Positions 1 through 24,167 of a DNA stretch of 64,000 bases are shown piece after piece (positions within the stretch are counted from its first letter, which is position 1; each line of letters starts with the position of its first letter). Source of the stretch: Paraburkholderia saeva (GTDB taxonomy: Bacteria > Pseudomonadota > Gammaproteobacteria > Burkholderiales > Burkholderiaceae). A program made the translations under genes and the position numbers. The DNA is taken from the NCBI RefSeq assembly GCF_907164555.1, contig NZ_CAJQZC010000001.1, forward strand, positions 310,001-374,000, in the 5' to 3' direction. A model generated the notes under the pieces. That model saw only the letters and a list, made by a program, of their open reading frames with translations, ran no database searches and was not told the origin of the DNA.

Positions 1-2
1 AA

Positions 3-797
3 GCACGCGATTTTGCCCGCAAGGATTCTCGTACGGCCTCGTATATTAGACCGTTTATTGGAACAGAAGACACGATCCACGGCGATTTTAGATATTGCCT
101 ATGGATCAAAGACCGTGAGTCCGCCGATGCGATGTCCATACCGTTGATCAAGAGTCGCACTGATGAGGTTATCAAGATGCGATCAGAAAGCTCGAAGGAA
201 CTAACGAAAGATGGCGCCGCGACTCCGTATGCTTTCCAGCAAGTTCGACAGCGAGATAATGAAACCGTGATCCTGGTCCCGCGTCACTCATCTGAGCGAC
301 GCGAATATTTACCTATCTCATATTTTCAAGCTGGTGCCATTGTCGCTGATGGAGCCTTCGGCGTATTCGGTGCAGAGATATGGACTATGGCGTTGCTGGT
401 CTCGAAGCTCCATCTCCTTTGGATTGCAACCGTCTGTGGCAAGCTCGAAACCCGGTATCGCTACTCGAACACGTTAGGTTGGAACACCTTTCCGGTCCCC
501 ACACTCACGGAGCAAAACAAAACTGATCTGACCGAATGTGCGGAGAACATCCTGCTTGCTCGAGAAGCGCACTTTCCGGCGACGATCGCCGACCTTTACG
601 ACCCGGACAACATGCCGGAGGATTTGCGCCGCGCCCATGAACGAAACGACGAAGTGCTTGAACGCGTCTACATCGGGCGCCGGTTCCGCAACGACACTGA
701 GCGACTGGAAAAACTGTTTGACCAGTACACGAAGATGACTGCGGCGGGAGCGAAGCCGGCCAAGAAAACCATTCGAGCAGGGAAGACCGCGCAATGA
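3..797 (+). CDS. MmeI-like DNA methyltransferase, C-terminal part
   Basis: The reading frame is open to the left window edge, so only the last ~264 residues are present. The segment carries the target-recognition and C-terminal parts of MmeI-type class I SAM-dependent DNA methyltransferases: an RPFIGTEDTIHG stretch, a YSNTLGWNTFPVP stretch, then LYDPDNMPEDLR and ERVYIGRRFRNDTERLEKLF near the end. The catalytic SAM and NPPY parts would lie outside the window. The family modifies adenine at a specific site. The stop overlaps the next start (ATGA), so it is translationally coupled to the helicase and GIY-YIG genes, suggesting a restriction-modification-like operon. The family call is from remembered consensus; whether the missing N-terminus holds a nuclease domain cannot be seen. 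Confidence 0.82.
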   Translation, partial: ARDFARKDSRTASYIRPFIGTEDTIHGDFRYCLWIKDRESADAMSIPLIKSRTDEVIKMRSESSKELTKDGAATPYAFQQVRQRDNETVILVPRHSSERREYLPISYFQAGAIVADGAFGVFGAEIWTMALLVSKLHLLWIATVCGKLETRYRYSNTLGWNTFPVPTLTEQNKTDLTECAENILLAREAHFPATIADLYDPDNMPEDLRRAHERNDEVLERVYIGRRFRNDTERLEKLFDQYTKMTAAGAKPAKKTIRAGKTAQ

Positions 798-2908
798 GCA
801 ACGAAGAGACCAAACGCTATTCGATTCCGACTGTTACCATCAAAACGGATCGGACAGGGGCGTCCAGCAAGTCGAACGCATTGGGTATGCGTCCCATGCA
901 GGAACGCGCCTACGCCAAACGGGGCGAGCAACACCTGCTGATCAAGTCGCCGCCGGCCTCCGGCAAGTCGCGTGCGTTGATGTTCATCGCGCTCGACAAA
1001 CTGGCGAACCAGGGCATCAAGCAGGCGTTGATCGTGGTGCCCGAGCGCTCGATCGGGGGCAGTTTTGCCGACGAACCGCTGTCCAAGTACGGCTTCTTCG
1101 CCGATTGGATCGTGAGGCCGCAGTGGAACTTGTGTAACGCGCCCGGGGCTGACGACGTCAGGGTGGCTCCGTCCAAGGTCAAGGCCGTCGGCGAGTTCCT
1201 TACCAGCGACGACAAGGTGCTGGTTTGCACGCACGCCACGTTCCGGTTTGCCTACCAGGAACTTGGGCCGGCCGCGTTCGACGATCGGTTGATCGCGGTG
1301 GACGAGTTCCACCACGTCAGCAGCGACCAGGACAACATCCTGGGCCGGCAGTTGACCGAGTTGATTCAGCGGAATAAGGTACACATGGTCGCCATGACCG
1401 GATCGTACTTCCGCGGCGACGCTGAAGCCGTGCTCGCACCGGACGACGAAGCTCGCTTCGAGACGGTGACGTACACCTATTACGAGCAGTTGAACGGCTA
1501 CGAGTACCTGAAATCGCTCGACATCGGCTACTACTTTTACACCGGCCCGTACCTGGACTCGATCACGGGTGTGCTCGATCCGTCGTTGAAAACGATTGTG
1601 CACATTCCGAACGTCAACTCGCGCGAGAGCCTCAAAAGGAAGCACCGAGAGGTCGAGGAGATAATGGACAGCCTCGGCACCTGGAGAGGCACCGATTCCC
1701 AAACTGGCTTTCATCTGGTCGAGTTGCCCGGGGGCCGTGTGATCAAGGTCGCCGATCTGGTGGACGACGGCGACGGCCGTTCCGCTGTGCTGTCTGCGTT
1801 GAAAGACCCGAAGCAGAAAAACAACCGCGATCACGTGGACATCATCATCGCGCTCGGCATGGCGAAGGAAGGCTTCGACTGGATTTGGTGCGAGCATGCG
1901 CTGACCATCGGCTACCGCAACAGCCTGACCGAAATCGTTCAGATCATCGGTCGTGCCACCCGCGACGCACCGGGCAAGGAAACCGCACGCTTCACGAACC
2001 TGATTGCCGAACCGGATGCATCCGAGGACATGGTGGCCGACGCGATCAACGATACCTTGAAGGCGATCGCCGCAAGCCTGCTCATGGAGCAGGTCTTGGC
2101 CCCACGCTTCGAGTTCACGCCCAAGAATGCCGGCGAACAACCAGGTTTCGACTACGGCCCCGACGGCTACAAGGACGGCCAACTCAACATCGGCGTGAAC
2201 CACGACGACGGGCGTGTGCACGTCGAGGTCAAGGGTCTGGTCGAACCGAAGTCCGAGGAAGCTGCGCGCATCTGCCGCGAGGACATCAACGAAGTGCTCG
2301 CCTCGTTCGTGCAGAACAGCAAGACGCTCGAACGCGGTTTGTTCGACCACGACAACACGATTCCCGAGGAACTAACGATCCTTCAAATGGGAAAGATCGT
2401 GCGCGAGAAGTACCCACACCTGGAAGAGGACGATCAGGAGGCCGTGCGTCAGTACGCGGTCGCTGCACTGGCCTTTACACAGAAGGCCAAGCAGGTCGAA
2501 ATGCTTGCCGCCGATGAAGCAACCTGCGACACCGACGACGGCACGCCGAAAGCGAACCTTGCCCTCATTGAGGGGGTGAAGCAGTTTGCAATGAGCGTCA
2601 AGGAACTGGATATCGACCTGATCGACCGGATCAACCCGTTCGACACCGCTTACGCAATCCTCGCGAAGGCGATGGACGAGAAGACCCTGAAGCAAGTGCA
2701 AGCCGTAATCGCGGCACGCAAGATCAACATTCCGATCGAGGAGGCGCGCGACCTGGCGAAGCGGGCGCTGGCGTTCAAGCATGATCGTGGTCGCCTGCCG
2801 GACATCAACGCCGCCGATCCGTGGGAGAAGCGCATGGCCGAAGGCATCGCTGTTCTTGCTCGCTTCAAGGCTGCCGAGAAGAGGAAGGAAGGCAATGGCA
2901 ACGCGTAA
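794..2908 (+). CDS. DEAD/DEAH-type SF2 helicase of a modification operon
   Basis: 704-residue superfamily 2 ATPase. A Walker A loop (SPPASGKS) is at residues ~52-59, a DEFHH Walker B/DEAD-box variant at ~170-174, an AMTGS motif III at ~200-204 and a QIIGRATRD motif VI at ~381-389, giving both RecA-like lobes in the first ~430 residues. The remaining ~270 residues, helical and charged, have no domain I recognise. The start overlaps the methyltransferase stop by 4 bp and the 3' end overlaps the GIY-YIG gene by 14 bp, so the three are almost certainly made together. By analogy with restriction systems it may translocate on DNA and gate a nuclease; this is inference. No nuclease motif is visible in this protein itself. 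Confidence 0.85.
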   Translation: MSNEETKRYSIPTVTIKTDRTGASSKSNALGMRPMQERAYAKRGEQHLLIKSPPASGKSRALMFIALDKLANQGIKQALIVVPERSIGGSFADEPLSKYGFFADWIVRPQWNLCNAPGADDVRVAPSKVKAVGEFLTSDDKVLVCTHATFRFAYQELGPAAFDDRLIAVDEFHHVSSDQDNILGRQLTELIQRNKVHMVAMTGSYFRGDAEAVLAPDDEARFETVTYTYYEQLNGYEYLKSLDIGYYFYTGPYLDSITGVLDPSLKTIVHIPNVNSRESLKRKHREVEEIMDSLGTWRGTDSQTGFHLVELPGGRVIKVADLVDDGDGRSAVLSALKDPKQKNNRDHVDIIIALGMAKEGFDWIWCEHALTIGYRNSLTEIVQIIGRATRDAPGKETARFTNLIAEPDASEDMVADAINDTLKAIAASLLMEQVLAPRFEFTPKNAGEQPGFDYGPDGYKDGQLNIGVNHDDGRVHVEVKGLVEPKSEEAARICREDINEVLASFVQNSKTLERGLFDHDNTIPEELTILQMGKIVREKYPHLEEDDQEAVRQYAVAALAFTQKAKQVEMLAADEATCDTDDGTPKANLALIEGVKQFAMSVKELDIDLIDRINPFDTAYAILAKAMDEKTLKQVQAVIAARKINIPIEEARDLAKRALAFKHDRGRLPDINAADPWEKRMAEGIAVLARFKAAEKRKEGNGNA

Positions 2909-4121
2909 AAAGAGCCAAGTACCGAACGACGTGTCCGACGACGATCTGCTTGAACAGTTGGGCATCTCGGTTGAGGTCGAGGTAACGGGTGGTCGTACGG
3001 CCCAAGAGGAACGCATCATCGCCGGTTTCGAGGAGATCCAGCGCTTCGTCGAGCAGCACGGACACGCGCCTCGTCACGGTGAAGATTTGGACATTTTCGA
3101 GCGCCTTTACGCCGTTCGTCTGGATCAACTACGCCGCAACACGACGGCGCTTGCTCTGCTTGCAACGTTCGACACCCAAGGTCTCCTCGCAGAGCCGGCT
3201 GGCGAGGCCGTCGTCGACCCGGACCAACTGGGGGACGATGATCTGCTCGCGGAACTTGGGGTCGAGCCGAACGGTGACGACGACATCACAGTACTTCGGC
3301 ATGTTCGTTCCTCCGCGGAAAAGACGGCGGCCGAGCAAATCGCGGACCGTACGCCCTGCATTGACTTTGACAATTTCAAGCCCCTATTCGACGATGCCAA
3401 GGCCGGACTGATGGACGGCACTTGGGAGTCTCAACCGTTTGCCCGAGACTCTGAAATCAAAACAGCCAATATCCAGCAGGGTGATTTTTTCATTCTTCAA
3501 GGTCAAATTGCCTATATCGCCCATCGCGGTGAAGCGATTCGAACGTCTGTTGGTGATAATCCAGATGCACGGCTTCGCGTTATTTACGACAACGCAACGG
3601 AAAGCGATCTATTGCTCCGCTCATTCCAGAAAGCGATCTACCGTGACGAGACACCGCGCCGCTTGCGAAAAATCGAAGTCGGTCCGCTATTCAGCGGCGA
3701 GTGGGAGGATGGTGATGTGCAGAGCGGTACGATCTACGTATTGCGTAGTCTGTCCGACGAGCCACTCATTGCGCAATATCGTCAGTTCATCCACAAGATC
3801 GGTGTTACTGGCGGCAAGGTCGGAACCCGCATAGCCGGTGCTGAAAACGATCCGACTTACCTATGTGCGCCAGTTGAAGTCGTCGCGACTTACAAACTGG
3901 CGGGAGTCAGTCGCACGAAGGTAGAGGGATTGTTCCATAAGGTGTTTGCCGGTGCACAGTTCGATATGACTCTGCCTCCGCGTTTCGGTAAGCCGGTACG
4001 TCCACGGGAGTGGTTCTTGGTGCCATTGTCTGCTATCGACGAGGCCGTTCGGAGCATTTTAGATGGGACGATTTTGAATAAGGTCTATGACCGAGATAAA
4101 GGGAAACTCGTGAACAGGTGA
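2895..4121 (+). CDS. GIY-YIG nuclease family protein (T5orf172-like)
   Basis: 408 residues from ATG 2895, chosen because GAGGAAGG lies just upstream and the frame before it overlaps the helicase. The C-terminal third holds a GIY-YIG signature of the T5orf172/MUG113 kind: GTIYVLRSL at ~276-284 and HKIGVTGG at ~299-306, followed by basic and aromatic residues expected of the fold. The N-terminal ~130 residues are acidic and carry a repeated DDDLLxxLG motif at ~15-23 and ~114-122. GIY-YIG proteins cleave DNA with one metal ion. Position directly after a methyltransferase and SF2 helicase suggests it is the nuclease of the operon. The exact cleavage role is inference. Confidence 0.75.
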   Translation: MATRKKSQVPNDVSDDDLLEQLGISVEVEVTGGRTAQEERIIAGFEEIQRFVEQHGHAPRHGEDLDIFERLYAVRLDQLRRNTTALALLATFDTQGLLAEPAGEAVVDPDQLGDDDLLAELGVEPNGDDDITVLRHVRSSAEKTAAEQIADRTPCIDFDNFKPLFDDAKAGLMDGTWESQPFARDSEIKTANIQQGDFFILQGQIAYIAHRGEAIRTSVGDNPDARLRVIYDNATESDLLLRSFQKAIYRDETPRRLRKIEVGPLFSGEWEDGDVQSGTIYVLRSLSDEPLIAQYRQFIHKIGVTGGKVGTRIAGAENDPTYLCAPVEVVATYKLAGVSRTKVEGLFHKVFAGAQFDMTLPPRFGKPVRPREWFLVPLSAIDEAVRSILDGTILNKVYDRDKGKLVNR

Positions 4122-5799: not shown

Positions 5800-7002
5800 A
5801 TGAGACTCATTAGCACGAGTGCGGAACTAAGTAAGCAACTGAAACGGCTTGTAGGGAAGTATCCCTGCATCGCTATTGCAACGGCTTGGGCGTCGGGAGA
5901 AACTGAGGTCTTCAAGTCACTGGTGCGAAACGAAGAGCGGATTGTCCAAGCCGTCATTGGCACGCACTTCTACCAAACGCATCCTGACGTTCTCGATCAA
6001 TTCGTGGGGTCGCAGAAGGTGAGATTCATGCTGCAACCTGACGGAGTGTTTCACCCCAAGGTTTATCTCTTCTGGAGCGATGATGCTTGGGAGGTTGTCA
6101 TTGGTAGTCCGAATCTTACTGTAGGAGCCTTGACGAAGAATACAGAGCTATCGGTTCTCGTCAGTAGCAGTGACGGCCAACCCACACTGAAGCAGGAAAT
6201 AGCTGAGGTCATTTCCCAGTATTGGTGTGAGGCCCAGACGGTTCATCAGAGTGAGGCTGACAGCTATCGTAAGTTGTGGAGGCTCAAAGCGCGTGACTTG
6301 AAAAAGGTCGCGGACATCTTCGGCGACAGGGCGACATCGAAACCAGCAGTGCAGTCCAAAGTGATGTCAATGGAGTGGGAGGATTATTTGGCTGAAGTCA
6401 AGAAGGACAAATATCACGGATTCAAGGATCGGCTTGCCTTGCTTAAGGAGATTCGGGAATATTTCCAGACTTACAGCCACTTCAACGATATGGACCTTGG
6501 AGTACGAAAAGGGATTGCTGGGCTTCCCAGTAAAGTGAAGGCCATCGAGAATTGGGCATGGTTTGGCAGCATGAAAGGGGCAGGCACTTTCGCAGGTCAA
6601 ATTAATGCTGGGAACGAAGCTTACTCGCGAGCCCTGGATGAGATTCCGCTGGAGGGGGAAATCAGCAAGGGGCATTACGATGCCTATATCGGGCACTATT
6701 TGGCGGCATATACGGGCGGTGGTCATGGTCTTGCAACGGCTACCAGACTGCTTGCAATGAAACGGCCTGACATCTTTCTGTGCGTTGACGCCCAGAACAA
6801 GCGAAAGCTTGCGGAGGACGTTGGCCTTGAGAAGTCCGATCAGCTTGACTACGAACGGTACTGGGAAGAAGTGGTTCTTCGCATCATGGAGTCGCCGTGG
6901 TGGCAGTCCCCTGAGCCTTCTGACCGTCTAGGACGGGAAGCTTGGCATGCTCGCGCGGCTATGTTGGATGCCATCTTCTACGAAGGGAAGCAGACGGTAT
7001 AA
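5800..7002 (+). CDS. Phospholipase D-like (HKD) family protein
   Basis: 400 residues. The first ~130 hold one PLD/HKD half-site: FHPKVYLF with H85 and K87, then IGSPNLTVGAL with S103 and N105, and an acidic residue at E115. Single-HKD proteins act as dimers, often as nucleases in restriction and defence settings. The C-terminal ~250 residues are helical with no motif I can name. Start ATG 5800 has AAGAGGAT upstream. It stands alone, 111 bp after the membrane protein and before the tRNA-Lys scar, as the last gene of the first island. Nuclease activity is inferred from the family. Confidence 0.72.
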   Translation: MRLISTSAELSKQLKRLVGKYPCIAIATAWASGETEVFKSLVRNEERIVQAVIGTHFYQTHPDVLDQFVGSQKVRFMLQPDGVFHPKVYLFWSDDAWEVVIGSPNLTVGALTKNTELSVLVSSSDGQPTLKQEIAEVISQYWCEAQTVHQSEADSYRKLWRLKARDLKKVADIFGDRATSKPAVQSKVMSMEWEDYLAEVKKDKYHGFKDRLALLKEIREYFQTYSHFNDMDLGVRKGIAGLPSKVKAIENWAWFGSMKGAGTFAGQINAGNEAYSRALDEIPLEGEISKGHYDAYIGHYLAAYTGGGHGLATATRLLAMKRPDIFLCVDAQNKRKLAEDVGLEKSDQLDYERYWEEVVLRIMESPWWQSPEPSDRLGREAWHARAAMLDAIFYEGKQTV

Positions 7003-8940: not shown

Positions 8941-9843
8941 CGCTTGAAACAGGGAAATCAGACTTTTTCATCGCCACCACTTAGTGATTCCGAGGGCGCT
9001 CCGTCTCCATGATCATCCTCGACTTCTCGGGCGCGACGAGTTGACCTCTCGCTCGTCTCGTGCCTTCCGCGCCGTACAACAACCACACCGTACGTCTTGA
9101 TCTCGACGAAGACACGTCGCATCCGCTCCAGAAGGCGTGACGGCGGATGGGCGCGCGAGAAGGAACTCGCGAGGCAGCCGGCTGACGCTCAAAGTGGGGA
9201 GTTTTTGTGCGCTACAGATTTGCTACAGCGATAATAGCAATCCTTATCTGACAGGCCTTGCGCTTGTCATTCGACCCCCTGAACTATCGCCGCCTGGGGA
9301 GAGCCGTCAAAGTGACTTTGAACGGCATAGTTCGACCCACAACTGCCTCTCGACCCAACGTGAGGCCTATGGCCGGTTGAAAACTGAAAGGGCCATTGCG
9401 CGGCATATCGGCCGGCAAGTCGTCAGCCTTTGCTGACATTGACGGTGCTCGCGTCCAAGGTCGGCAGCTTGGCGTATAGCGAATCTTGTCAGCGTTTGTG
9501 GTGTCGGATCCCGCTGATTGAATCAGCAAATTCGCCGTTACGACCACCTCGGCCATCCGGTTTCCGACGGTGCGGAGCCCTTGATAAGCTGTAGCGGCTC
9601 TACGGCGGCATGTTCGACCTTTGCCCCCTGTACGATGCATGAATCTTCAGCGCACTGATCCAGCGTGGCGGCTGAAGTACGTTATGGTCGCTTTCATGGA
9701 CCCCCAATGCGTCGATGGCCTCTCTTGTCGCCGGTGTCAGAGATTACTTTGTCGCCAGATAGGTCGGGTAGACCAAGATATAATCGTAAGGCACACGCGA
9801 TCTTCTGACACGGTCGCCGAAGATAACGTTACCTGAGCTATTG
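8941..9843. other. Gene-poor intergenic DNA before the ABC-3C operon
   Basis: About 900 bp with no supportable gene. A short direct repeat, GCTACAGATTTGCTACAG, occurs near 9212-9230. The right end must contain the promoter of the following operon, but I cannot place its boxes. Confidence 0.4.
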
Positions 9844-10911
9844 ATGACTCTAAAAGTAAGCTTCCTGAGAGCGGCACACGGCGATGCGATTGTCATTGAG
9901 ACATGCGTCGGCACCGAAACGTTCCGGATCTTGATTGACGGCGGCCCGTCAGAGTGTTACGAGCGTCGCCAAGGTGGGAAGAGAACAGCGGGCCCGTTGC
10001 AAGAGGTGTTGGAGGATCTGCGACAGAGAGGCGAGCGATTCGACCTCACGATTGTGACCCATGTCGATGACGATCATATCGGCGGCCTATTGAAGGCTTG
10101 CCGGCACGATAAGTACCGTTCAGTCATGGCGAATGACGTCTGGTTCAACTCGGGAAAATTAATTGCCCGAGCCTTCAACACGCAGGTACCTGACGGATCG
10201 GACATCTGGATAGACGATCCTGAAGACCGACTTACGAGCATTGCTCAGGGCGTAGAGTTCGACACCCTCTTGGATGGACACTGTACCTCGCGTCGGCAAG
10301 TAAGGTTCGTAGATGGCCGCGAGATCTCGTTCAAGCACGGCAAGATATTTATCCTTTCCCCGACGGAGCAGCAGCTAACCAGGTTGCTTTCCAAGTGGGA
10401 GACGGAGGAAACTGATTCGCTCACTTCTGGCGTGGCAAGAGACTACCACCTATCGCTTTCCGAATTGCTGGTCAACGACAAGTTCGTCGAAGACACTTCT
10501 GTACATAATGCAAGCTCGATAGCGGTACTCATCGAAACGCAGGGACATCGAGTCTTACTTCTCGGAGACGCGCTCCCATCGACAGTCTGCGAGACGCTTC
10601 GAGACCATTTAGGCGTATCGTCAGAGAACCCACTAGAAGTCTCTGTGTGCAAGCTATCGCACCATGGCAGCAAAGCGAACACAAGCGAGGAACTGCTTTC
10701 GTTAATTCGATGCGAGAAATTCGTTGTTTCGACCAATGGCATGCGTCATGCCTTGCCGAGCAAAACCACCCTCGCCAGAATCAATGAATTGCAACCGAAT
10801 AGCGAGATACTGTTCAATTACGGGGCAGTCAGAGACGACGTCTTTCCAAATTTGGAGGAGCGTGTTGCCTGCGGGAACATAAAAGCGCTCACAGGAGACT
10901 TGACACTGTGA
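9844..10911 (+). CDS. MBL-fold hydrolase, ComEC-like (ABC-3C effector)
   Basis: 355 residues from ATG 9844, just after an in-frame TTG. It is a metallo-beta-lactamase fold of the ComEC/Rec2 type: RAAHGDAIVIE at the start, LIDGG at ~30-34, metal-binding HVDDDHIGG at ~73-81, LLLGDAL near 237 and SHHGSK near 265. ComEC-like MBL domains are usually nucleases or phosphodiesterases. It is the first gene of a four-gene overlapping operon with a protease, a middle component and an SMC-like ATPase, which matches the published ABC-three-component conflict systems. As a predicted effector it would be held in check or activated by the ATPase; the target is unknown. Confidence 0.8.
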   Translation: MTLKVSFLRAAHGDAIVIETCVGTETFRILIDGGPSECYERRQGGKRTAGPLQEVLEDLRQRGERFDLTIVTHVDDDHIGGLLKACRHDKYRSVMANDVWFNSGKLIARAFNTQVPDGSDIWIDDPEDRLTSIAQGVEFDTLLDGHCTSRRQVRFVDGREISFKHGKIFILSPTEQQLTRLLSKWETEETDSLTSGVARDYHLSLSELLVNDKFVEDTSVHNASSIAVLIETQGHRVLLLGDALPSTVCETLRDHLGVSSENPLEVSVCKLSHHGSKANTSEELLSLIRCEKFVVSTNGMRHALPSKTTLARINELQPNSEILFNYGAVRDDVFPNLEERVACGNIKALTGDLTL

Positions 10912-12215
10912 GCGCGCTTGGACCAGAAGAGATATATCAGCGGGCGGTGATGGTCAACGATGGGTCTGGCGTGCTGGTGACAGCGCTCAGCGCCGACCAC
11001 TCGTACGTTCTGACAGCGCGCCATAATCTGCTTAAAGAGCGGACTAATGTCGCGTCGCTCATGGAGCCGAACGAGACTGTCGTGAAATTGCGGGATGGCA
11101 CCGAGATTGAAGTCAGGCAGCTTATCGTTTCCCCAATGCTCGATATTGCAGTGATCGTGGTGGTCAGTCAGACGCTGGAACCTACGGCGACATCGACGTC
11201 GGTCGAGATGGAGCAATCGATGTGGTTGGTCGGATTTCCGGAAATTCGACGCAATTTGAACGACCCGCTCCGGCTCTTCACAGGGCAGATAGAGAGCTTC
11301 GGCGCGATGTCGATCGATGTCTCGACAAAGAGCTTTGCGCCAGTTGATGAAGTTCGAGGGGTCTCAGGCGGTGGCGTGTATATCAAGGCCGCAAAGCGCT
11401 GGATTCTCGTCGCGGTCGAGTGCGAGATGGAAGGTCGGCTTCAAGAGGGACACAACTGGTTGCGTTGCATCGGAATACCTGCGTTCGACGACTTGATCAG
11501 AGAGCATGGATTCCCTCCGATCTTGCCGCCCTTCTTGCTGTCGTTTTCTCGGCTTGCGGATGCAGCATTTCCGCTACCAGGCTTCGAATGCCCGGCAACG
11601 CTGCAACGTCTGCGAACGGTCCTTCTTAGCGTTATTCGAACGAACCTCGCTACTGACTCTCCGACCCCCAATGGAATCCTGAGCGCCTTTGGGAAGAGGC
11701 TGTTAGTTCAAGAGGATCCCGAATGCAGCCTGCTTGACAGGAAGCTTTGGATTTCGTGGCTAGAGTACCTGACCCTGTCTGTATTGCTCGACAGGCCACA
11801 AGTTGTCGATGCGGACTATATCGAGACACTACGTTCACGACGTCGATTTCTATACAGTGGCTCCGACGGCGAGTGGACAGCGTTCGTCGAACGGATCATC
11901 CAATCTGACCTTGGTGATCTTGCTGATGACGGCTTGGTGCTCGTTAGCAATCGGATCGAAGGGTCGCCTGCCAAAACCAGGTCAATCAGAGACCTATCCA
12001 GAGTGGTGCCGGATATCGGTCTTCCCCTGAGTGGGGCGTTAGACATCGGCATTCCACGTAAACCAATCGGCAAGGTGAAACTTTTCCATCTTGATGGCCT
12101 TCACATGGATTGTATTGTTCGGCAAGAAGAACTTTACGACAATAAACTCGGACTTGATGAACATATCGTCTTGCAGTTGCTAGCGGAGGCCTATCGTGCA
12201 TCTATTGCTCAATGA
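10908..12215 (+). CDS. Trypsin-like serine protease with C-terminal extension (ABC-3C effector)
   Basis: 435 residues, GTG start at 10908 overlapping the MBL stop, with AGGAG upstream. The N-terminal ~190 residues are a chymotrypsin-fold protease with all three catalytic positions visible: H39 in LTARHNL, D79 in SPMLDIAVI and S153 in RGVSGGGVYI. No signal peptide is present, so it acts in the cytoplasm. The remaining ~240 residues are helical and probably contact the ATPase complex. In ABC-three-component systems such proteases are proposed effectors that cleave a partner or host protein on activation. It overlaps the next gene by 20 bp. Confidence 0.8.
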   Translation: MSALGPEEIYQRAVMVNDGSGVLVTALSADHSYVLTARHNLLKERTNVASLMEPNETVVKLRDGTEIEVRQLIVSPMLDIAVIVVVSQTLEPTATSTSVEMEQSMWLVGFPEIRRNLNDPLRLFTGQIESFGAMSIDVSTKSFAPVDEVRGVSGGGVYIKAAKRWILVAVECEMEGRLQEGHNWLRCIGIPAFDDLIREHGFPPILPPFLLSFSRLADAAFPLPGFECPATLQRLRTVLLSVIRTNLATDSPTPNGILSAFGKRLLVQEDPECSLLDRKLWISWLEYLTLSVLLDRPQVVDADYIETLRSRRRFLYSGSDGEWTAFVERIIQSDLGDLADDGLVLVSNRIEGSPAKTRSIRDLSRVVPDIGLPLSGALDIGIPRKPIGKVKLFHLDGLHMDCIVRQEELYDNKLGLDEHIVLQLLAEAYRASIAQ

Positions 12216-12759
12216 TCTAAATCTCGGTTTTCTGAAAAACATCGCGTCGGATGTCGATTTTGCATTCTTCCATTCAGATGACGCGAGGCATTTCATCAGT
12301 TGCTTTGTCGCTCGCTTTTCGGACAATGAAACCTGCGCAAAACATTGGCGATTGATCAACAACGAAATCGCCGTTGAATTTCAATCATCGTTGCAAGACG
12401 AATTTTCGTCTTGGAACATCTACCTCGCCTTGGTGACACCGTCAGCGATGGACAAGCACCTGAAGTACCGCATTGAGAACGATCGGTTCGCGCTCAGAAA
12501 GCTGGTACTAGCAGGGCCGACGTTCGCCTCGGAGTCTGACGCTGTCGTGCGAGAGGCGCTGGAGAATTCGATACTAGGACAAGATCTTAAGCTTTCGGAT
12601 GTGGGGGACGGACTGTATGACCAGCTTGAGAACTCGAATCGATTTCGTGACTTTCTCTCGACCTCCTCGCAACTTCCTCTCGATGGAAAAGAGCGTTCGT
12701 CCGAAGTTCGGCGCCGTCGCATCAACGAACTTCTCGAGCGTCTAGGATCTCTCTCATGA
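12196..12759 (+). CDS. ABC-three-component system middle component
   Basis: 187 residues, GTG start at 12196 with GCGGAGG seven bases upstream. It is a small alpha/beta protein with WNIYLALV at ~75-82 and a KYRIENDRFALRKLV segment at ~90-104, the pattern I associate with middle component 1 proteins that link the effector to the ABC ATPase. No catalytic motif is seen. The basic tail SSEVRRRRINELLERL may pack on the coiled coil. It overlaps both neighbours, giving strict coupling with protease and ATPase. Confidence 0.75.
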   Translation: MHLLLNDLNLGFLKNIASDVDFAFFHSDDARHFISCFVARFSDNETCAKHWRLINNEIAVEFQSSLQDEFSSWNIYLALVTPSAMDKHLKYRIENDRFALRKLVLAGPTFASESDAVVREALENSILGQDLKLSDVGDGLYDQLENSNRFRDFLSTSSQLPLDGKERSSEVRRRRINELLERLGSLS

Positions 12760-15700
12760 AGATCAAAAAAGTCATCATTGAAGGTTTCCGCGCATATGAA
12801 ACGAAGAGTGATGGGACCTTTGACTTCACAACTCCGTTGGGCGACCCTGCACGATTTGTTTCCATCTATGCCCCGAACGGCTTCGGTAAAACATCTTTTT
12901 ACGATGCCGTAGAGTGGGCGCTTACGAACAACATCGAACGGTTCGTTCGCGATTACACTCGCGTTGAAAACGATAATATCTCTCGAGCTCAGAATCAGGA
13001 GAGTCGTCGTCAACACATCTTGCGAAATCGTGCGATCCCAGAGTCTGCGCCTTCACGAGTGACCGTCACAGGAATCGGATTCGGCGATGTCATTAAAGAT
13101 GTGCCGAAGGCGCGCGCTGGTAGCCGAGACTATCTCTTCAAACGCGAAGCACCGGTGCGCGGAATGGAGGAAGTCGCTGGCATCTTCCTGTCCCAAGAGG
13201 CCATCGACGGATTCCTTCGAGAGGAGAAACCTGACGCGCGCTATGACCGGTTTATGCAAAACTTCGGAGATAGTGATGATACCTATCGCGCCAATCTCGT
13301 TGCCCTTAGGCGCGAATTGACAATCCTGCTCAAGGGTATGTCCGAGGAGCAGCGAAGATACGAAGAAGTTCTCGCAAAACAGACCGACACCGGGATCTTC
13401 GAGAGTGTTAATCGGACTATTCAGAGTCTGGTCGATCGTGGTGAGCGCATTGAATCGGTATCAGAGAGCTTTGATGCGGACAGCGAGCGCAATCTTCGCA
13501 ATCTGATTACGCAACGGCTGCACGAACTGAACAATAGTAGCGCGGACCTGGAGCGGTTTCTGGTCGCCTTGCAGGCAGCGCTCGTCGAGTTGCCTGTTGT
13601 AGCGGGTTCCATGGCTACGAGAGGGGCAGCAATCAAGGCATTGTCCGAACTCGAGAAACGGCGTCATGCTGTGATTCGCTACGCCAAGCTCAAAGAGAAA
13701 GTCGCGCATTGGACTGAGTCCGTTGAACGAGCACACGCGGACACGACAAGGCATCAGACCTTGTCGAGCAAAGTGCCCTCTTTCGAAGAGCTGCTTAGTC
13801 AAATTGCTCAAATCACTACACGAGAGCAAGAGTCGGAGGCGCAGCTTCAAGTCAAGAAAGCGGAGCTTGAAAGCTGGGAACTCCGCATCGCAACATGCAA
13901 GACGTCGTTGCAGGATTTGGACCTCAATGCGAATGCGCTAGTGGCTCTGCGAGAGCGGGCCCCCGAAATATATCGTGATCTCGACGAAGGGCGCGCTGTT
14001 ATCAACGAAAGACAGGCTCAAAGGGACAACCGCCAACAACGTCTTGATGTGCTAACCGCGAAGCGTGATTTGGAGAAGAGCAATCTCGAAAGCCTGATTG
14101 GCCTAGAGATCACCGAAGAATCAATCAACGCAGTTGACTTGACCATCATTTCGGAAGAGGGCGTTTCTGTACTTCCTCTCCGGCAAGCTGTTCTTGAGAA
14201 AGCCCGACGAGCTGAGCTTCTTGTGGCGGCGGGAAAGGCCCTCGCAGCCTTCGATGCTCAAAAAGACCAATTTGCGACCTTGGTGTCACTCGGCTGCGAG
14301 ATCCTAGCGAAGACGCCCTCGAATCAATGTCCGCTGTGTACGAAAGAACACGCGAGCCCCGACGACCTGTTGCACAACATTCTGGGCAATCATTTACTCA
14401 ATCAACTGGAAGCAGCCGCGCTCCAGAAGCAGAATGACGCGCAGGCAGCCTTCGACGAGTCATGTCAGCAAGTCATCGTCTTAATCGAGGAATGGAACCG
14501 GAGAAAAGATAAGGCAGTACTTGACTTCCGGGCTCGCGTCTTACAGACCGAACGGGAGTTGCACGCGCTCACATTAGAAATAAAGTCGCTCGACCGCGAC
14601 ATTCAAGCTGCGGCCCCTCGCGTACAGACTTCAGCTCAGCTCGTGCTGAATCTCAGCGCAGAGCAACTTGGCCAAAAGTTAGCAGAAGATCTTCGTCAGG
14701 TTTCCGAGCGTCGTGCGAAGGAACAGTCGGACCTCTCTCGTTCGGAGGATGAGGCCCAACTCCGCAGAGACGCGGTGAAACTGCTGAATCAAGCGATTGA
14801 TGAGGCGAGGGCAAAGGCCGACCAAGCTAAGGGTAGCGAGGTATATAAGGAATCGATGGCCGTTTGTTCGTCAAGTGCCCTCGATCCCGCACAACTAAGA
14901 CAGCACGTGGCTCAGATGCTGGAAGAGAGCCAGGCTAAAGCAGCAGCTGCTTTGCAGCAGTTGAAGGACGCGCGAGATCAGTTAGAGAAGGTGGAGGTCA
15001 CGGTGCCTAACCCGCGCACGGAAGACTTGGCCTCCTTAGAGCGCGAGGAACAATCGAACCAACGCTCACGGCTTGAAGCGGATGCGGAAATTTCTACGTT
15101 CGTATCGAAGATCGGCTCGCATCTGCCAAGGTACGATTCGTCGTGGCTGCCTGAAAGAATCGTGGAAGGCATTAATTCCGCAAACGCGATGTATGCGCAA
15201 CAGAAAGAGACAACAACAGGGTTGGCTAGGCAATATGTGCTGCTAGGCGAACAATTGGAGCTCGTGCTCCCCTATGTCGAATCGATTGGAGCGCGGAAGC
15301 AACTCGACAAGCTTCTAACTGAGAAGGCTGAGCATGAGGCTCTCAGCGCTAAAGTTGATGCCGAATACGCGCACATCATCCAAAGGTTGGATTCGAGAAT
15401 CAGTAGCTTCTTTTTTACTGATTTAATCAATTCGATATACAGGAAGATCGATCCACACCCGGACTTCAAAGAGGTTCGCTTCACATGCGAGTTCCCAGAA
15501 GGGGAAAAACCGCGTCTCCACGTCCTAGTTTCGGACGAGGCCGGCGACTGCATCGCACCTAACCTTTACTTCAGTGCAGCTCAGGTAAACATCCTTAGCC
15601 TAAGCATTTTTCTGGCACGCGCTCTTCATGTGAAGGCGCATGGAGAGCCAGTTGGATGCATCTTCATTGATGATCCAATTCATTCTATGGATTCAATTAA

Positions 15701-15896
15701 CGTATTGGCTACGATAGACCTGTTGCGTACTATCTCCAAAAAATTTGACCGTCAGATCATCTTATCGACGCACGATAGGAGCTTCTTCGAACTGCTCAAG
15801 CGAAAGATTCCCGAATATCACTATGAGTCAAAGTTCCTTGAATTGGAGACGTTTGGGCGGATAAAGGCGCGAACGGGTGAAACGGATCCTTCATAG
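12756..15896 (+). CDS. SMC/Rad50-like ABC ATPase (ABC-3C sensor/motor)
   Basis: 1046 residues. The N-terminal ATPase lobe has Walker A YAPNGFGKTS at ~38-47. A long coiled coil runs from ~210 to ~870 and is broken near its middle by a CPLC zinc hook at 525-528. The C-terminal lobe has a signature region NLYFSAAQVNILSLS, a Walker B CIFIDDP near 968 and an H-loop STHDRS near 1005. This is the full architecture of an SMC-like DNA-tethering ATPase. In ABC-three-component systems it is thought to sense aberrant nucleic acid and trigger the effectors, here the MBL hydrolase and protease. ATG 12756 overlaps the preceding stop by 4 bp. It is the last gene of the operon. Confidence 0.88.
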   Translation: MKIKKVIIEGFRAYETKSDGTFDFTTPLGDPARFVSIYAPNGFGKTSFYDAVEWALTNNIERFVRDYTRVENDNISRAQNQESRRQHILRNRAIPESAPSRVTVTGIGFGDVIKDVPKARAGSRDYLFKREAPVRGMEEVAGIFLSQEAIDGFLREEKPDARYDRFMQNFGDSDDTYRANLVALRRELTILLKGMSEEQRRYEEVLAKQTDTGIFESVNRTIQSLVDRGERIESVSESFDADSERNLRNLITQRLHELNNSSADLERFLVALQAALVELPVVAGSMATRGAAIKALSELEKRRHAVIRYAKLKEKVAHWTESVERAHADTTRHQTLSSKVPSFEELLSQIAQITTREQESEAQLQVKKAELESWELRIATCKTSLQDLDLNANALVALRERAPEIYRDLDEGRAVINERQAQRDNRQQRLDVLTAKRDLEKSNLESLIGLEITEESINAVDLTIISEEGVSVLPLRQAVLEKARRAELLVAAGKALAAFDAQKDQFATLVSLGCEILAKTPSNQCPLCTKEHASPDDLLHNILGNHLLNQLEAAALQKQNDAQAAFDESCQQVIVLIEEWNRRKDKAVLDFRARVLQTERELHALTLEIKSLDRDIQAAAPRVQTSAQLVLNLSAEQLGQKLAEDLRQVSERRAKEQSDLSRSEDEAQLRRDAVKLLNQAIDEARAKADQAKGSEVYKESMAVCSSSALDPAQLRQHVAQMLEESQAKAAAALQQLKDARDQLEKVEVTVPNPRTEDLASLEREEQSNQRSRLEADAEISTFVSKIGSHLPRYDSSWLPERIVEGINSANAMYAQQKETTTGLARQYVLLGEQLELVLPYVESIGARKQLDKLLTEKAEHEALSAKVDAEYAHIIQRLDSRISSFFFTDLINSIYRKIDPHPDFKEVRFTCEFPEGEKPRLHVLVSDEAGDCIAPNLYFSAAQVNILSLSIFLARALHVKAHGEPVGCIFIDDPIHSMDSINVLATIDLLRTISKKFDRQIILSTHDRSFFELLKRKIPEYHYESKFLELETFGRIKARTGETDPS

Positions 15897-17846: not shown

Positions 17847-19241
17847 TTAGCAGTATTCGCCAACGTGCGCATGGTGGTCGTGGAATTCCATGCGATCCAG
17901 CGACGGCCTCAACCTCATCTCCGATTGATGAGCATCGTGAAGTGCTGTACCGATGCGTGCGACCAGGCCGGTAACCAAGGCGTTGCCCATCAGAAACGCT
18001 CGCTTTGAGTCCGTGACCTTGGGATGCTCGGTGAACCCCCGTGGAAATCCGTTTAGCTCTTCGAGCTCTTCGGGAACCAGTCGACGCAATCGCCCATTCG
18101 TCGCGCGAATAGCATGTCGAGTCCGGGATGCAGACATTCCGCCTTCCGAGGTAATGATAGTACGCGCTGGTTTGCTGAGCGGGTCGGGAAAGGCCATCGC
18201 TCCTTCTGTGTAGTTGTATCTGAACCCGTCTTTCAGTCTGGGAAGGCACTTCGCGCCCTTGGCCAATTGCCAGGCTTGTTCGGCCTCGCCGCTGATATAG
18301 AACCTGTCGTGTACATCTGTCGTCCGGTTGACGATATCTCCCAGCGTCAGGGCTCGGGCTGTACCGGTAAAGGGCGTGTAGTCGCCGCATATGCTGGCGT
18401 CGACCGCCGCGCTGAAGACGTGGCCGTTGAACATGAAGCCCGCATTTGCGAAGGGCGATTTGCCATTCGGTAGCGGTCGAAACGTTGACTGCGCCATGAA
18501 CGGGTCTATCGGTACATTGAAGCACTCTCTTTCCGCTTCGGCACGGTCGCGAGGGGTTGCCGGAAAAGCTTTTCCCAAGATGCCTCCTGAGACCCAGCGG
18601 CCAGGATCCACATACTCAGTAGCTACATTGCCGTTATAAAGCCCCGTCGTTTCGTGATACGCGACGATGAACACGCGCTTACGTTTCTGAGGAAGCCCAT
18701 AGTCGGCGGCGTTGATCACGCGCCACTCAACCGCGTAACCCAGCCGATTCAAAGTAGACAGGACGATAGCGAAGTCTCTGCCTTTAGCCGAGGCTGGAGA
18801 CGATAGGAGGCGGTCTACGTTTTCGAGGACAACGTATTTAACCGGCGCGCTGTCCGCAATGCGCTGATGCAAGAGCTTCACTATCGACCACCACAAGACC
18901 CCCTTGTTGCCTTCGATGCCTTTTGATTGCGAGATTGGCTTAGCGACCGAGTAGTCCTGGCAAGGAAAGCCGCCTACAACAACATCAGGCGCAGCGTCGC
19001 GTATCGCCTGTTGGCCGGCACGTGTGGCCAACACCTCGTTGATGTCTTGGTTTAGGTGGACCGAGTCCGGCCAATGTTGGTTGTAAATGAGACTGGCGTG
19101 CTGAATCTTCTGTGAAGGCTCAAACTGATTGCTGAGGGTGACGCGAAAAGGCTGCCCGGGCACGGATTCGAGGCCGAGCCGGAATCCGCCCACGCCGGCA
19201 AAAAGTTCGATGACATTGAGAGTGGCATTTTGTTGCTCCAT
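17847..19241 (-). CDS. DNA (cytosine-5-)-methyltransferase, intact
   Basis: 464 residues. Start chosen at 19241 because AAAGGAAAC lies just upstream; the frame extends 10 codons further without a signal. All catalytic C5-MTase motifs are present: motif I FAGVGGFRLGL, motif IV GGFPCQDYSVA with the nucleophilic Cys, motif VI VLENVD, motif VIII LPQKRKRVFIV, motif IX LNGFP and motif X FLMGNALV. It methylates cytosine in a DNA site set by the region between VIII and IX (~220-400). No cognate restriction enzyme is recognised nearby, so it may be an orphan or self-protecting element MTase. Its upstream CCGGATAAAAC motif is shared with the second MTase at 22312. Confidence 0.93.
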   Translation of the reverse strand: MEQQNATLNVIELFAGVGGFRLGLESVPGQPFRVTLSNQFEPSQKIQHASLIYNQHWPDSVHLNQDINEVLATRAGQQAIRDAAPDVVVGGFPCQDYSVAKPISQSKGIEGNKGVLWWSIVKLLHQRIADSAPVKYVVLENVDRLLSSPASAKGRDFAIVLSTLNRLGYAVEWRVINAADYGLPQKRKRVFIVAYHETTGLYNGNVATEYVDPGRWVSGGILGKAFPATPRDRAEAERECFNVPIDPFMAQSTFRPLPNGKSPFANAGFMFNGHVFSAAVDASICGDYTPFTGTARALTLGDIVNRTTDVHDRFYISGEAEQAWQLAKGAKCLPRLKDGFRYNYTEGAMAFPDPLSKPARTIITSEGGMSASRTRHAIRATNGRLRRLVPEELEELNGFPRGFTEHPKVTDSKRAFLMGNALVTGLVARIGTALHDAHQSEMRLRPSLDRMEFHDHHAHVGEYC

Positions 19242-19283
19242 TTTGTTTCCTTTGGTGGTTGCAGGAAACAAGTGGAGAAACGT

Positions 19284-21106: not shown

Positions 21107-21138
21107 GATGGTCCGCTTGCGCGGACCATCGTTTTTTT
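21107..21138 (+). terminator. Strong rho-independent terminator
   Basis: GATGGTCCGC and GCGGACCATC form a perfect 10-bp stem with loop TTGC, followed by G and seven T. It ends the 19602-20415 unit and touches the stop of the convergent methyltransferase gene. Confidence 0.9.
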
Positions 21139-22312
21139 ACACCGGGAGATTGAGGCAGTCGTTGAGCCAGAGTCCGGTAACCGTCGCGACGGGCACTGGC
21201 AATGCGTTACCGAGTTGGCGCATGCCCTGCGACCACGAGCCTTCTACGACGAAATTGTCGGGTAAGCCTTGTAGTCGCGCAGCGTCGCGCACTGTGAATT
21301 GCCAGCAAGCGCCTTTGTCATCAATGAACATGTTCTCGCCACCGGGAACACCGTGGACGCCCGCTTTGAGGGCCTTAGATGGCAAATCGAGTTGGCTGCC
21401 CGTATGACCAGGATACTGACGCGCAGCGCGGCGAACGGTGCAATCCTCAAAGCGAGCGGCCGGCGCCGCCGTACCATTGTTAGCCAAGGCGTCGCGGCAG
21501 GTGCGCCACGCCGCTCCGGCGGGGCGAGTGTTGCCTTTAAGCAGCCGTTTGTAAATAGATACCTCCTCCTTCGGAACAAACGAGGCGTCGGGTCGCACTA
21601 ATCCATGTCGCTCCCAGTACTCGCCGGAAACCCACTTGTCCCATACGAGTCGCTCATGGTTGTGTGTCGGGGCTGGAAATTTCAGCAGGTTGCCGCAGTC
21701 TTCTCGTATGCCAGCGATGAGTACGCGCCGCAGGTTCTGAGCCACTCCGTAGTCGGCCGCGTTCAGCGGTACGACAGTGACCTTGTAATGCATATCTTCT
21801 TGAATACTGCAGGGTTGCTCTAGTCGTGCGACCAACCTGTCGAGGTACTGACTGAACGAGGGACGCAGCAGGCCCGGAGTGCTCTCGAAAACAAACGCTC
21901 TTGGCAACGCCTCCGAAACGGCGCGAATGGCCTCAGGCCACAAGTCCCGGTGGTCATGCTGACCGGCGCCCAAACCACCACCAGAAAACGGTTGTGACGG
22001 TGGACCGCCTGCAATTAGGTCGATACCTGCGTACGCTTGCCAGTCGACATGGCGGACATCGGTCTGCGTAATTGATAAACGGTCCGATTTGCCGAACGCG
22101 GTCCGGTTTGCAGATAGTGTCCGGCATGCGTATGCGTCGACGTCGACCATCACCGGGTGAATGAAGCCCGCCTGCTGCAGGCCCAAGGCCATTGCACCGC
22201 ATCCAGCGAAGAGTTCAACGCATTCTAGTGGACGAGTGGATGTTTCGGCATTGCTGTTGATGCCGGACAGCGACGACTGAAGAGCGTTGACAGTATGTTG
22301 CGAGGTGGTCAT
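21137..22312 (-). CDS. C5-cytosine methyltransferase homologue lacking the catalytic Cys
   Basis: 391 residues from ATG 22312 (GGAG 9 nt upstream; an ATG at 22327 is the alternative). The fold is clear: motif I FAGCGAMALGL, motif IX DAARLQGLPDNF and motif X QLGNALPVPVA. Catalytic motifs are altered: motif IV reads GGPPSQPFS, so the nucleophilic Cys is Ser (codon TCA at about 22004); motif VI is FESTP in place of ENV; and motif VIII is QNLRRV, missing the first Arg of QxRxR. The frame is otherwise open and long, so it is a maintained pseudoenzyme rather than obvious debris. It may bind DNA as a regulator or support the intact MTase at 17847; both roles are inference. Confidence 0.85.
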   Translation of the reverse strand: MTTSQHTVNALQSSLSGINSNAETSTRPLECVELFAGCGAMALGLQQAGFIHPVMVDVDAYACRTLSANRTAFGKSDRLSITQTDVRHVDWQAYAGIDLIAGGPPSQPFSGGGLGAGQHDHRDLWPEAIRAVSEALPRAFVFESTPGLLRPSFSQYLDRLVARLEQPCSIQEDMHYKVTVVPLNAADYGVAQNLRRVLIAGIREDCGNLLKFPAPTHNHERLVWDKWVSGEYWERHGLVRPDASFVPKEEVSIYKRLLKGNTRPAGAAWRTCRDALANNGTAAPAARFEDCTVRRAARQYPGHTGSQLDLPSKALKAGVHGVPGGENMFIDDKGACWQFTVRDAARLQGLPDNFVVEGSWSQGMRQLGNALPVPVATVTGLWLNDCLNLPV

Positions 22313-22833
22313 ATTCACGGACTCCATAAGTGGGTGAGTCTCGTGTAGGCGCCGGTTTTATCCGGCCAGCGAATTTTTTTCGCTTACCGATTGGATGTTG
22401 AAAAATTGCCGGGTCAGATTCCTGACCGATTAGCAATCTACTGCGGGTTATATCCGTGCCGTTAGAGCGCCTCCTGTCTCAAGCCACCTGCTCTGCCGGT
22501 GGCATCAAATGGGCAAACGCCGGATATGCCGCTGGTCGTTGACGTCGGATTTATGAACGCGCTTTTCGATTGCAGCAACGGCAGGATCGCTCCACGTAGC
22601 GAAACGTCCAGCGTCTTTTCGGAGCACGGCCCCTCGATGCCATAGAACGAGGCCGGTTAGGCCCGATAAACTGCGTAGCTGTATCTGTTATTCCAACCCA
22701 AGGAGCAACAGATGCAAATAGCTAACCCGCTTGTCGGTGTGCCACTTTTCTCCGCGAGATGCGGACATGTACCGCGTATACCGCGTCGGTCTATCCATGC
22801 GAACAACTCCAGTATGTCGAGTGGAGGTGGTCG
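22313..22833. other. Intergenic region between degenerate MTase and replication genes
   Basis: About 520 bp without a convincing gene. It holds the methyltransferase promoter motif at 22355-22380, where AGCGAA and TTCGCT form a short hairpin around a T-run. An antisense frame at 22657-23187 is a shadow of the replication genes. Confidence 0.4.
22355..22380 (-). promoter_or_regulatory. Shared MTase promoter motif, copy 2
   Basis: CCGGATAAAAC on the minus strand, 43-53 nt before ATG 22312, with an A-tract (GAAAAAAATTCG) a few bases upstream. Same motif and same spacing as before the intact MTase at 19241, which also supports the choice of start codon here. Confidence 0.5.
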
Positions 22834-23082
22834 ATGAGGGGCTACCGCAACGCGGGACTGGTCAAGATTTACGCAATCGTCGAGGCCGATGCGACCCACC
22901 CAATGCGTTATCTGTTGGAGAAACCCGGGCCCGATGGTTCGCCTTGGACGCTGGACCCGTCGAAGGCCAGAAGATTTGGGGGGTTCGAGGGATTCGACTT
23001 TCTCGGTCGGGCACTCGAACGCGGCCTTGAACTGGCGATGCTGCCTCTCGACGGTGATGTCGATGGCGGAGAAGGGCAATGA
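22834..23082 (+). CDS. Small unknown protein upstream of replication initiator
   Basis: 82 residues from ATG 22834, with GTGGAGGTGG just upstream; a longer version from 22759 is possible. It begins MRGYRNAGLVKIYAIVEAD and has a hydrophobic alternating strand pattern but no family I recognise. The stop overlaps the start of the TrfA-like gene (ATGA), so it is coupled to replication and may control copy number; that is inference. Confidence 0.5.
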   Translation: MRGYRNAGLVKIYAIVEADATHPMRYLLEKPGPDGSPWTLDPSKARRFGGFEGFDFLGRALERGLELAMLPLDGDVDGGEGQ

Positions 23083-23951
23083 GCGACCTTCTCCTTGATG
23101 CGCTAGTCGCGGAGCGTGACCGCGACGGTGGAGAGTCGGCTGCACCAGGTCCGCAGATCTGGCAGCTACCCTATCCGCTTGTGCCATACCATCCGGAAAG
23201 TGCGCCCATCATTCCGAACGAACTGGTGCGCTGTGCGCTGTTTCGTGTCGCCGACCCGGCGTCGCCACGACGGTCGTTTTCTCGACACCGGTTACCGATC
23301 CAAGCTGCGAGGAACGGCTATATGGAGTACTCGGGTGAAGAGTTGCGTCAGGACGACCGGCGGGTGTTCATGCATGCCCTTTCTCTCGAAGGCGATATGC
23401 CCGGTACCGCGACCTTCAGGCCACGGCGATTCTGTAGGGACATCGGCTGGGGCACATCTAACGCGGCCTATGAAAAACTCATTGATACGCTCACACGGCT
23501 CAAGGCGACATGTCTTCTCATGTTCGTTCCGCGCATTGCACGCCAAGGAGCGGCCGTGTCCCTGATTGCCCGTCTGGAATTCGTGCCGGACTCGAAGGAA
23601 ATCCGAGTGTATTTCGACCGGGAGATCGCGGAGCTGTTTAGCGACCAGCACTACACGCGAATACTGCGCGTCTATGAGGACCAACTGACCCGACGTTCGT
23701 ATCTCGCGTCCTGGCTGCTGGGGTTTTATGCGTCACACCGCGAGCCCATAGCATTCCCTCTCGACAGATTGCAGAGTCTCTGCGGGGACGTGACGCCGCG
23801 CAAGGAGTTCAGGCGCAAAGCAACTCTTGCGCTACAACAACTCGTCGAGGTGAAGTTCCTGGAGTCGTTCTCGCTTACCGATGGGACGGTCAGTTGCCGC
23901 CGCGCAATTACGCCACCCGAATCGCGCAGTTGCCCCACCGGAATCGCGTAA
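23079..23951 (+). CDS. TrfA-like plasmid replication initiator
   Basis: 290 residues. The sequence follows the TrfA pattern: IIPNELVRCALFRV at ~43-56, YSGEELRQDDRRVFMHAL at ~83-100, then winged-helix segments with FCRDIGW, LTRLKA and RSYLASWLLGFYASH. TrfA binds iterons at oriV and opens the origin together with host DnaA. The gene's last codons are built from 22-bp tandem repeats that continue past the stop, as in self-regulated initiators. It implies that this part of the island is, or derives from, a plasmid or plasmid-like mobile element now in or near chromosomal-type genes. Confidence 0.78.
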   Translation: MSDLLLDALVAERDRDGGESAAPGPQIWQLPYPLVPYHPESAPIIPNELVRCALFRVADPASPRRSFSRHRLPIQAARNGYMEYSGEELRQDDRRVFMHALSLEGDMPGTATFRPRRFCRDIGWGTSNAAYEKLIDTLTRLKATCLLMFVPRIARQGAAVSLIARLEFVPDSKEIRVYFDREIAELFSDQHYTRILRVYEDQLTRRSYLASWLLGFYASHREPIAFPLDRLQSLCGDVTPRKEFRRKATLALQQLVEVKFLESFSLTDGTVSCRRAITPPESRSCPTGIA

Positions 23952-23989
23952 ATGTCCCACCCGAATCGCGCGATCAGCCCACCGATAGG
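23902..23989 (+). repeat. 22-bp iteron array, putative oriV
   Basis: Four head-to-tail 22-bp units start at 23902, 23924, 23946 and 23968. The best pair reads GCGCAATTACGCCACCCGAA and GCGCAGTTGCCCCACCGGAA (first 20 bases each); CCACC recurs exactly every 22 bp at 23913, 23935, 23957 and 23979. The array overlaps the last 50 bp of the TrfA-like gene. Two-turn spacing is typical of initiator-binding iterons. Confidence 0.75.
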
Positions 23990-24038
23990 ACTAACGGAAG
24001 CCCGCCTGGCGGGTCTTCGGAAGAGAAAATTCACACGT

Positions 24039-24066: not shown

Positions 24067-24167
24067 GCGGAGACTTCCCTCAATGGACGAGTTTTTCCGA
24101 TGTGCCGCCCTTTCGTTGGCCAAGGCTGCGCCTTAAGTGGCTATCAGGGAAGACGGCTAACCGTTTG

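Follow-up and report, generated by a model that had tools for sequence, protein, structure and literature searches.

The window analyzed here is a 64,000-nucleotide stretch of Paraburkholderia saeva DNA (G000:C1:310001-374000 of a 6.33-Mb draft genome), and it begins inside an operon encoding an MmeI-like adenine methyltransferase, an SF2 helicase and a GIY-YIG nuclease. Judged from its sequence, this operon probably belongs to the DnmA-YeeB-YeeC kind and encodes a Type I-like restriction-modification system that depends on ATP. A preliminary description of this DNA had considered the trio a possible unnamed system. That view did not stand: by its genes, the trio is a member of the dnmA(yeeA)-yeeB-yeeC kind known from Bacillus subtilis and not a new system. 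The cluster and its conserved synteny are already in print, together with an enrichment of defense families around it and the suggestion of a Type I-like system (excerpts of PMC7261158 and PMC9973331). We add a motif control against solitary enzymes, the exchange of recognition parts, a cargo slot shared with hsdR and a predicted target for the window copy. These four additions were not met in our literature search, which queried cargo in Type I operons but not recognition-domain exchange in this cluster.

A conserved three-gene operon

Within the window, Pfam recognizes MmeI_TRD (1.6e-65) and MmeI_C (2.3e-18) in the methyltransferase end, DEAD (7.4e-07) and ResIII (4e-06) in the helicase, and T5orf172 (5.2e-10) and MUG113 (4.9e-08) in the nuclease. 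Together with the open frames, these matches bear out the trio as first described, and the claimed overlaps of 4 bp between methyltransferase and helicase (794-797, ATGA) and of 14 bp between helicase and nuclease (2895-2908) were likewise found. The nuclease ORF listed from 2781 (446 aa) is too long; the ATG at 2895 (408 aa) matches the homologues. The full methyltransferase, whose recovery had been proposed, lies at L002 9948-12797 (G000:C1:307948-310797) and starts 2052 bases 5' of the window. Its product, read from the ATG, has 949 aa and all five MmeI domains, namely MmeI_N, MmeI_hel, MmeI_Mtase (1.1e-106), MmeI_TRD (4.7e-78) and MmeI_C. MmeI_TRD, T5orf172 and the window methyltransferase each gave a single match in the genome of origin (G000). 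Rfam gave no match in L002 9200-18000, and no tRNA gene was found in the window or L002. Features of the operon and its surroundings are collected in Table 1.

Table 1. Features of the operon and neighboring genes (window positions unless L002 is given)
Feature	Position	Strand	Remarks
MmeI-like m6A methyltransferase (DnmA/YeeA-like), 3' part	1..797 (open frame 3-797)	+	residues ~686-949 of 949
Target recognition domain (residues 650-853), in-window portion	1..506	+	PF20466; contact residues mapped
MmeI C-terminal helical domain (residues 855-932)	510..743	+	PF20467
SF2 helicase/translocase, YeeB-like, 704 aa	794..2908	+	PF00270/PF04851; motifs I, II, III, VI conserved; SF2 fold
Walker A motif PPASGKS (helicase residues 53-59)	950..970	+	motif alignment
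GIY-YIG (T5orf172) nuclease, YeeC-like, 408 aa	2895..4121	+	PF10544/PF13455; catalytic residues invariant 77/77
First DDDLLxxLG motif (nuclease residues 15-23), candidate docking peptide	2937..2963	+	putative function
Second DDDLLxxLG motif (nuclease residues 114-122), candidate docking peptide	3234..3260	+	putative function
T5orf172/GIY-YIG domain (nuclease residues 278-388)	3726..4058	+	Pfam; weak Slx1/HIGLE fold match
PLD-family protein, weak NgoFVII-like N-terminal similarity	5800-7002	+	Pfam, PADLOC
LmuA-like metallo-beta-lactamase (1.4e-108), trypsin-like with ABC-3C CTD4 LmuA-like (9.3e-96), SMC-like LmuB (3e-265)	9841-15896	+	PADLOC
Two Type II DNA cytosine methyltransferases	17847-19271 and 21137-22327	-	PADLOC; Pfam DNA_methylase checked for first
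TrfA-like replication protein (5e-23) and serine recombinase (Resolvase, Recombinase domains)	23079-27424		
DUF932 protein (1.6e-69), just upstream of operon	L002 8264-9268	-	

Homologue searches with the helicase and the nuclease each returned at least about 8000 homologues. A helicase-profile scan of species genomes confirmed at least 552 of 590 candidates, and the best 80 loci were kept. Of these best 80 loci, 79 have the methyltransferase upstream on the helicase strand, 78 have the nuclease directly downstream, and 77 have both; the three misses sit at contig ends (L077, with 393 bases upstream, and L020 and L037, with 70 and 0 bases downstream of the helicase). Since the helicase had served as anchor here, the three proteins were then run one by one against 200 Pseudomonadota genomes, among them that of the window. 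Helicase matches occurred in 14 genomes, one of which (G167, E 9.5e-4, 31% over 151 residues) was judged unrelated, and nuclease matches also in 14, that of G188 being a fragment with a stop. Both were present in 13 genomes, adjacent and on one strand in 13/13, and the methyltransferase lay upstream of the pair in all 11 testable genomes, the contig beginning at the helicase in G225 and G251. Because the order recurs in 77/80 loci and in this independent sample, the trio is not a chance arrangement, and conservation of gene order, a check proposed in the preliminary description, is borne out.

Without the window's own genome, the carrier frequency is 12/199 Pseudomonadota genomes (6%). The helicase matched in 6 of 59 relatives (own genome included). 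A relative occurs in 264 plasmid records, and in 151 of these the match spans 80% or more of the query. The name 'DNA helicase restriction/modification system component YeeB' is given to the protein in one plasmid record. Queried with the nuclease, viral contigs gave no match; the three helicase matches in phage records were weak or partial. Among 14 control genomes, B. subtilis matches MmeI_TRD and T5orf172. Three Bacillota loci (L041, L045 and L053) carry the trio, with identities to the window copy of 59-60% for the methyltransferase, 68-69% for the helicase and 53-58% for the nuclease.

PD-ExK loss and motif conservation in the three proteins

The window methyltransferase is homologous to the MmeI structure 5hr4 (E 8.8e-135), and the cleavage residues of MmeI are given as D70...E80-M81-K82 in the accessible part of PMC4833311. 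We compared 72 full-length operon enzymes, i.e., the window copy and those of 71 of the 79 methyltransferase-bearing loci (8 partial ones were dropped), with 8 solitary MmeI-like controls. These were taken from 7 of the 18 trio-less genomes in which the methyltransferase matched, to which a second copy in G207 was added. The pattern D-x9-E-x-K was present in the N-terminal domain of 8/8 solitary enzymes and, at the same place, in 0/72 operon enzymes. The aspartate column is a gap in 72/72 operon enzymes, and the lysine column is G in 66/72. The E and K columns are imperfectly aligned in the larger alignment (E in 27/72 operon rows and 7/8 solitary rows); PD-ExK loss is called from the D column, the K column and the pattern search. 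A looser D-x8-11-E-x-K also occurs in 3/72 operon enzymes (L020, L022 and L063), at other positions, and was not scored as PD-ExK. Methylation motif I is kept in 72/72 and NPPY in 67/72. The absence of PD-ExK agrees with the published description of DnmA-like MmeI homologues as devoid of the endonuclease motif, with yeeB- and yeeC-like genes as neighbors (excerpts of PMC7261158 and PMC9973331).

In all 81 helicases, motif I keeps its GKS, and DEFHH, MTGSYFR and QIIGRATRD do not vary. The GIY-YIG residues Y281, K301, G303, R312, E344 and E372 are invariant in 77/77 nucleases, in which the leucines of DDDLLxxLG are nearly so. Both copies of this peptide are modeled as short helices within low-confidence linkers of the predicted structure, and the duplicated peptide is a candidate docking motif. 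A profile comparison of the helicase C-terminus with the nuclease N-terminus gave E 0.012 at a probability of 3.7% over 42 columns; a module shared between them is a lead only. A sequence search of the PDB matched neither the helicase (E<=0.1) nor the nuclease (E<=1). The helicase matched neither hsdR (TIGR00348; E<=0.1) nor, in Pfam, any nuclease family; one weak TIGR00348 match (1.8e-6) came from the genome of origin as a whole.

Exchange of recognition domains and a cargo slot

Pairwise distances were compared among 70 complete trios of the 81 loci, window included. The strongest correlation is that between helicase and nuclease (rho 0.65); methyltransferase core and helicase reach 0.56. 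The recognition domain tracks helicase and nuclease poorly, at 0.18 and 0.17, against 0.17 and 0.18 in the best of 200 permutations. Where helicase identity is at least 0.95, recognition-domain identity is at most 0.53 in 10/10 pairs, which are not all independent. Among L047, L048 and L056, for instance, identity is 0.99 in the helicase and 0.98 in the nuclease, with 0.35-0.38 in the recognition domain. Six of the ten pairs were aligned as DNA, and in 6/6 homology is lost from methyltransferase residue ~450-600 to ~760-840, a stretch that takes in the end of the catalytic domain and the bulk of the recognition domain. Homology resumes at the end of the methyltransferase gene (at only 68-70% in two pairs), breaks again before the helicase in 5/6, and then runs at 88-96% across helicase and nuclease.

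A motor-nuclease that itself reads sequence is hard to square with these apparent swaps. Near-identical helicases accompany divergent recognition domains, and specificity therefore most likely comes from the methyltransferase. The swaps suggest that the methyltransferase supplies the site and the sensing of methylation, and on the simplest reading it would do so for both activities, as in Type I. The pair L060/L069 weighs against this reading, sharing a recognition domain at 0.91 with helicases at 0.85.

We read the MmeI contact code (available part of PMC4833311) through the alignment to 5hr4. The predicted target of the window copy is 5'-NCGR(m6A)C. Base 2 (C) would be specified by K672, which stands at the Lys645 position, base 3 (G) by R779/D801, base 4 (R) by R838 together with G802, and base 6 (C) by E834/R836, the methylated A being base 5. 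Base 1 is left as N. Residue 669 is N for Tyr642 of MmeI and residue 780 is H for the conserved Thr752, and because of these differences base 2 and the base-5 contact are less sure.

A further shared trait is found in the gap between methyltransferase and helicase. Across 79 loci, this gap exceeds 250 bp in 42, is direct in 36, as in the window, and lies between in 1. The inserts were grouped into BLAST clusters with one representative each checked in Pfam; they include YhcG/DUF1016 (8 members), SLFN_AlbA_2 with HATPase_c_4 (7), RhuM (6), GmrSD_N (2), a single Fic and a single PDDEXK_4, and 4/10 representatives matched nothing in Pfam. Across the 200 genomes, at least 9/46 YhcG and at least 5/53 RhuM domains were found no more than 3 kb upstream of an hsdR match of the same strand; among the hsdR matches listed, five more RhuM genes lie on the hsdR strand within 8 kb but elsewhere. 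The expectation for such adjacency is ~0.0005 per gene under a uniform model, but defense genes cluster, so the true expectation is higher. Type I operons thus carry these accessory families at an equivalent position. Taken together, the cargo slot and the recognition-domain swaps favor a Type I-like mechanism, as far as sequence comparison can tell. Inserts without a Pfam match, e.g. L066 8889-9986, L074 9201-9983, L063 9576-9995 and L040 9153-9986 (loci L005-L084), possibly represent new defense accessories.

The same data bear on whether the helicase-nuclease pair could be an effector of its own that senses, for example, replication forks, ends or damage, the methyltransferase being just a linked gene or serving as antidote. 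The best correlation being that of helicase with nuclease, the independence of the recognition domain and the frequent parting of the methyltransferase from the pair by cargo (42/79 loci) all fit such an effector. However, the methyltransferase stands upstream of the pair in all 11 testable genomes of the 200-genome sample, and its core covaries with the helicase (0.56), which makes an autonomous effector unlikely.

Proposed mechanism, genomic setting and relation to known systems

For the restriction-modification system that we favor, the following course of events may be envisaged. The MmeI-like protein would recognize a short asymmetric sequence and methylate one adenine, as is known for its family and in line with the motifs seen, and so protect host DNA. 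With its N-terminal PD-ExK site gone, it should not cut as MmeI does. At an unmethylated site it would instead hold or load the SF2 motor, which would travel along the DNA, and the GIY-YIG protein docked on the complex would cut, perhaps when the motors of two sites meet. By analogy with Type III and Type ISP enzymes, such a two-site collision would make methylation of one strand sufficient protection for newly replicated DNA. Neither motor nor nuclease would depend on the DNA sequence, and exchange would be confined to the methyltransferase's recognition part, as the natural swaps support. It is plausible, as proposed earlier, that on unmodified DNA the helicase gates the nuclease.

More broadly, and with less confidence, YeeB-YeeC may well be a generic, sequence-blind motor and GIY-YIG module open to programming by any MmeI-type methyltransferase with a dead nuclease. 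It would be a further ATP-dependent restriction architecture built from Type IIL, SF2 and GIY-YIG parts, evolving like Type I by exchange of the recognition part, with the same accessory cargo beside the motor gene, and present in ~6% of sampled Pseudomonadota under the annotation 'Type IIG'. The dnmA-yeeB-yeeC cluster is common, occurs on many plasmids and is mechanistically almost untouched, and the B. subtilis copy, the best studied, appears to be inactive. With a copy that looks intact, a target predicted for it, and natural pairs that have motor and nuclease in common but not the recognition part, the programming of a generic motor-nuclease by its methyltransferase becomes directly testable; if true, a reprogrammable ATP-dependent restriction scaffold exists.

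The operon might also be a relic, with a methyltransferase acting as an orphan and an inactive helicase and nuclease, as proposed for B. subtilis. According to the excerpts available, YeeB and YeeC of that species reportedly lack C-terminal stretches and are inactive (PMC9973331, PMC7261158), deletion of yeeB and yeeC left phage growth and plaquing unchanged (PMC9973331), and plasmid transformation was the same without dnmA (PMC7261158). Some copies in our sample look damaged as well: the methyltransferase of G207 (L092) is split over two frames, and the helicase at G008:C5:128127-130171 is in two pieces. The window copy, however, has three open frames with catalytic motifs present, and the invariance of catalytic residues over 76 other nucleases and of motor motifs over 80 other helicases points to selection on activity. 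A relic thus seems quite improbable. In support of a working restriction system, deletions of dnmA and yeeB in a homologous cluster of Vibrio crassostreae are reported to raise sensitivity to some phages (cited in the accessible part of PMC9973331).

An ordinary Type IIG/IIL enzyme beside two unrelated neighbors, as the best PADLOC label of the methyltransferase implies (REase_MTase_IIG, E 9.6e-273, residues 5-932), was rejected as hardly credible, given a PD-ExK motif in 0/72 operon versus 8/8 solitary enzymes and the conserved gene order. Because the motif is absent from the operon methyltransferases, this label would be misleading; it misses two of the three parts and credits the methyltransferase with a nonexistent nuclease. 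In the suggested check against PADLOC profiles, PADLOC-DB 2.0.0 offered nothing that models the nuclease and matched the helicase weakly and in part; it calls the first gene Type IIG. The remark that the trio is unlike ordinary Type IIG proved sound, the methyltransferase lacking PD-ExK and motor and nuclease having genes of their own.

The operon sits in a mobile-looking defense island (Table 1). GC content in 4-kb blocks is 0.51-0.58 up to 28 kb and mostly 0.60-0.65 thereafter, and the region of the TrfA-like protein and the serine recombinase is likely the end of an integrated element. The DUF932 family is common on plasmids and integrative elements. The PLD-family gene is possibly a further restriction gene. 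The two cytosine methyltransferases came without a recognized partner nuclease. The Lamassu-type three-gene operon holds two different LmuA-type effectors together and may deserve a look. PADLOC found no BREX PglZ or BrxC among the operon and nine window proteins, genes further upstream not being scanned; PglX matches were weak and local.

Of the known systems, the B. subtilis and V. crassostreae clusters, as far as the excerpts describe them, share with the window operon a PD-ExK-less MmeI-like methyltransferase, an SF2 helicase and a T5orf172/GIY-YIG protein in the same order and on the same strand. The B. subtilis cluster, likened here by description and not by protein alignment, differs in its reportedly truncated, inactive YeeB and YeeC, whereas the window copy looks intact. 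The Type IIL enzyme MmeI (5hr4) resembles the first gene in domain order, methylase motifs and recognition domain, but has its own PD-ExK and no ATP motor, whereas the window operon lacks the motif and has two further genes. In Type III systems, an SF2 motor goes together with methylation of one strand at asymmetric sites. The same holds for Type ISP enzymes (PMC3874165, in part), the one-strand feature being presumed for the window operon; Type ISP enzymes are single polypeptides with an Mrr-like nuclease, unlike the three genes and GIY-YIG nuclease seen here. Compared with Type I HsdRMS, the window operon has no two-domain S subunit, its recognition domain being inside the methyltransferase; its motor is not an HsdR match (E<=0.1), and its nuclease is a separate GIY-YIG protein. 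What it has in common with Type I is a separate motor gene, an exchangeable recognition module and the cargo families beside the motor gene.
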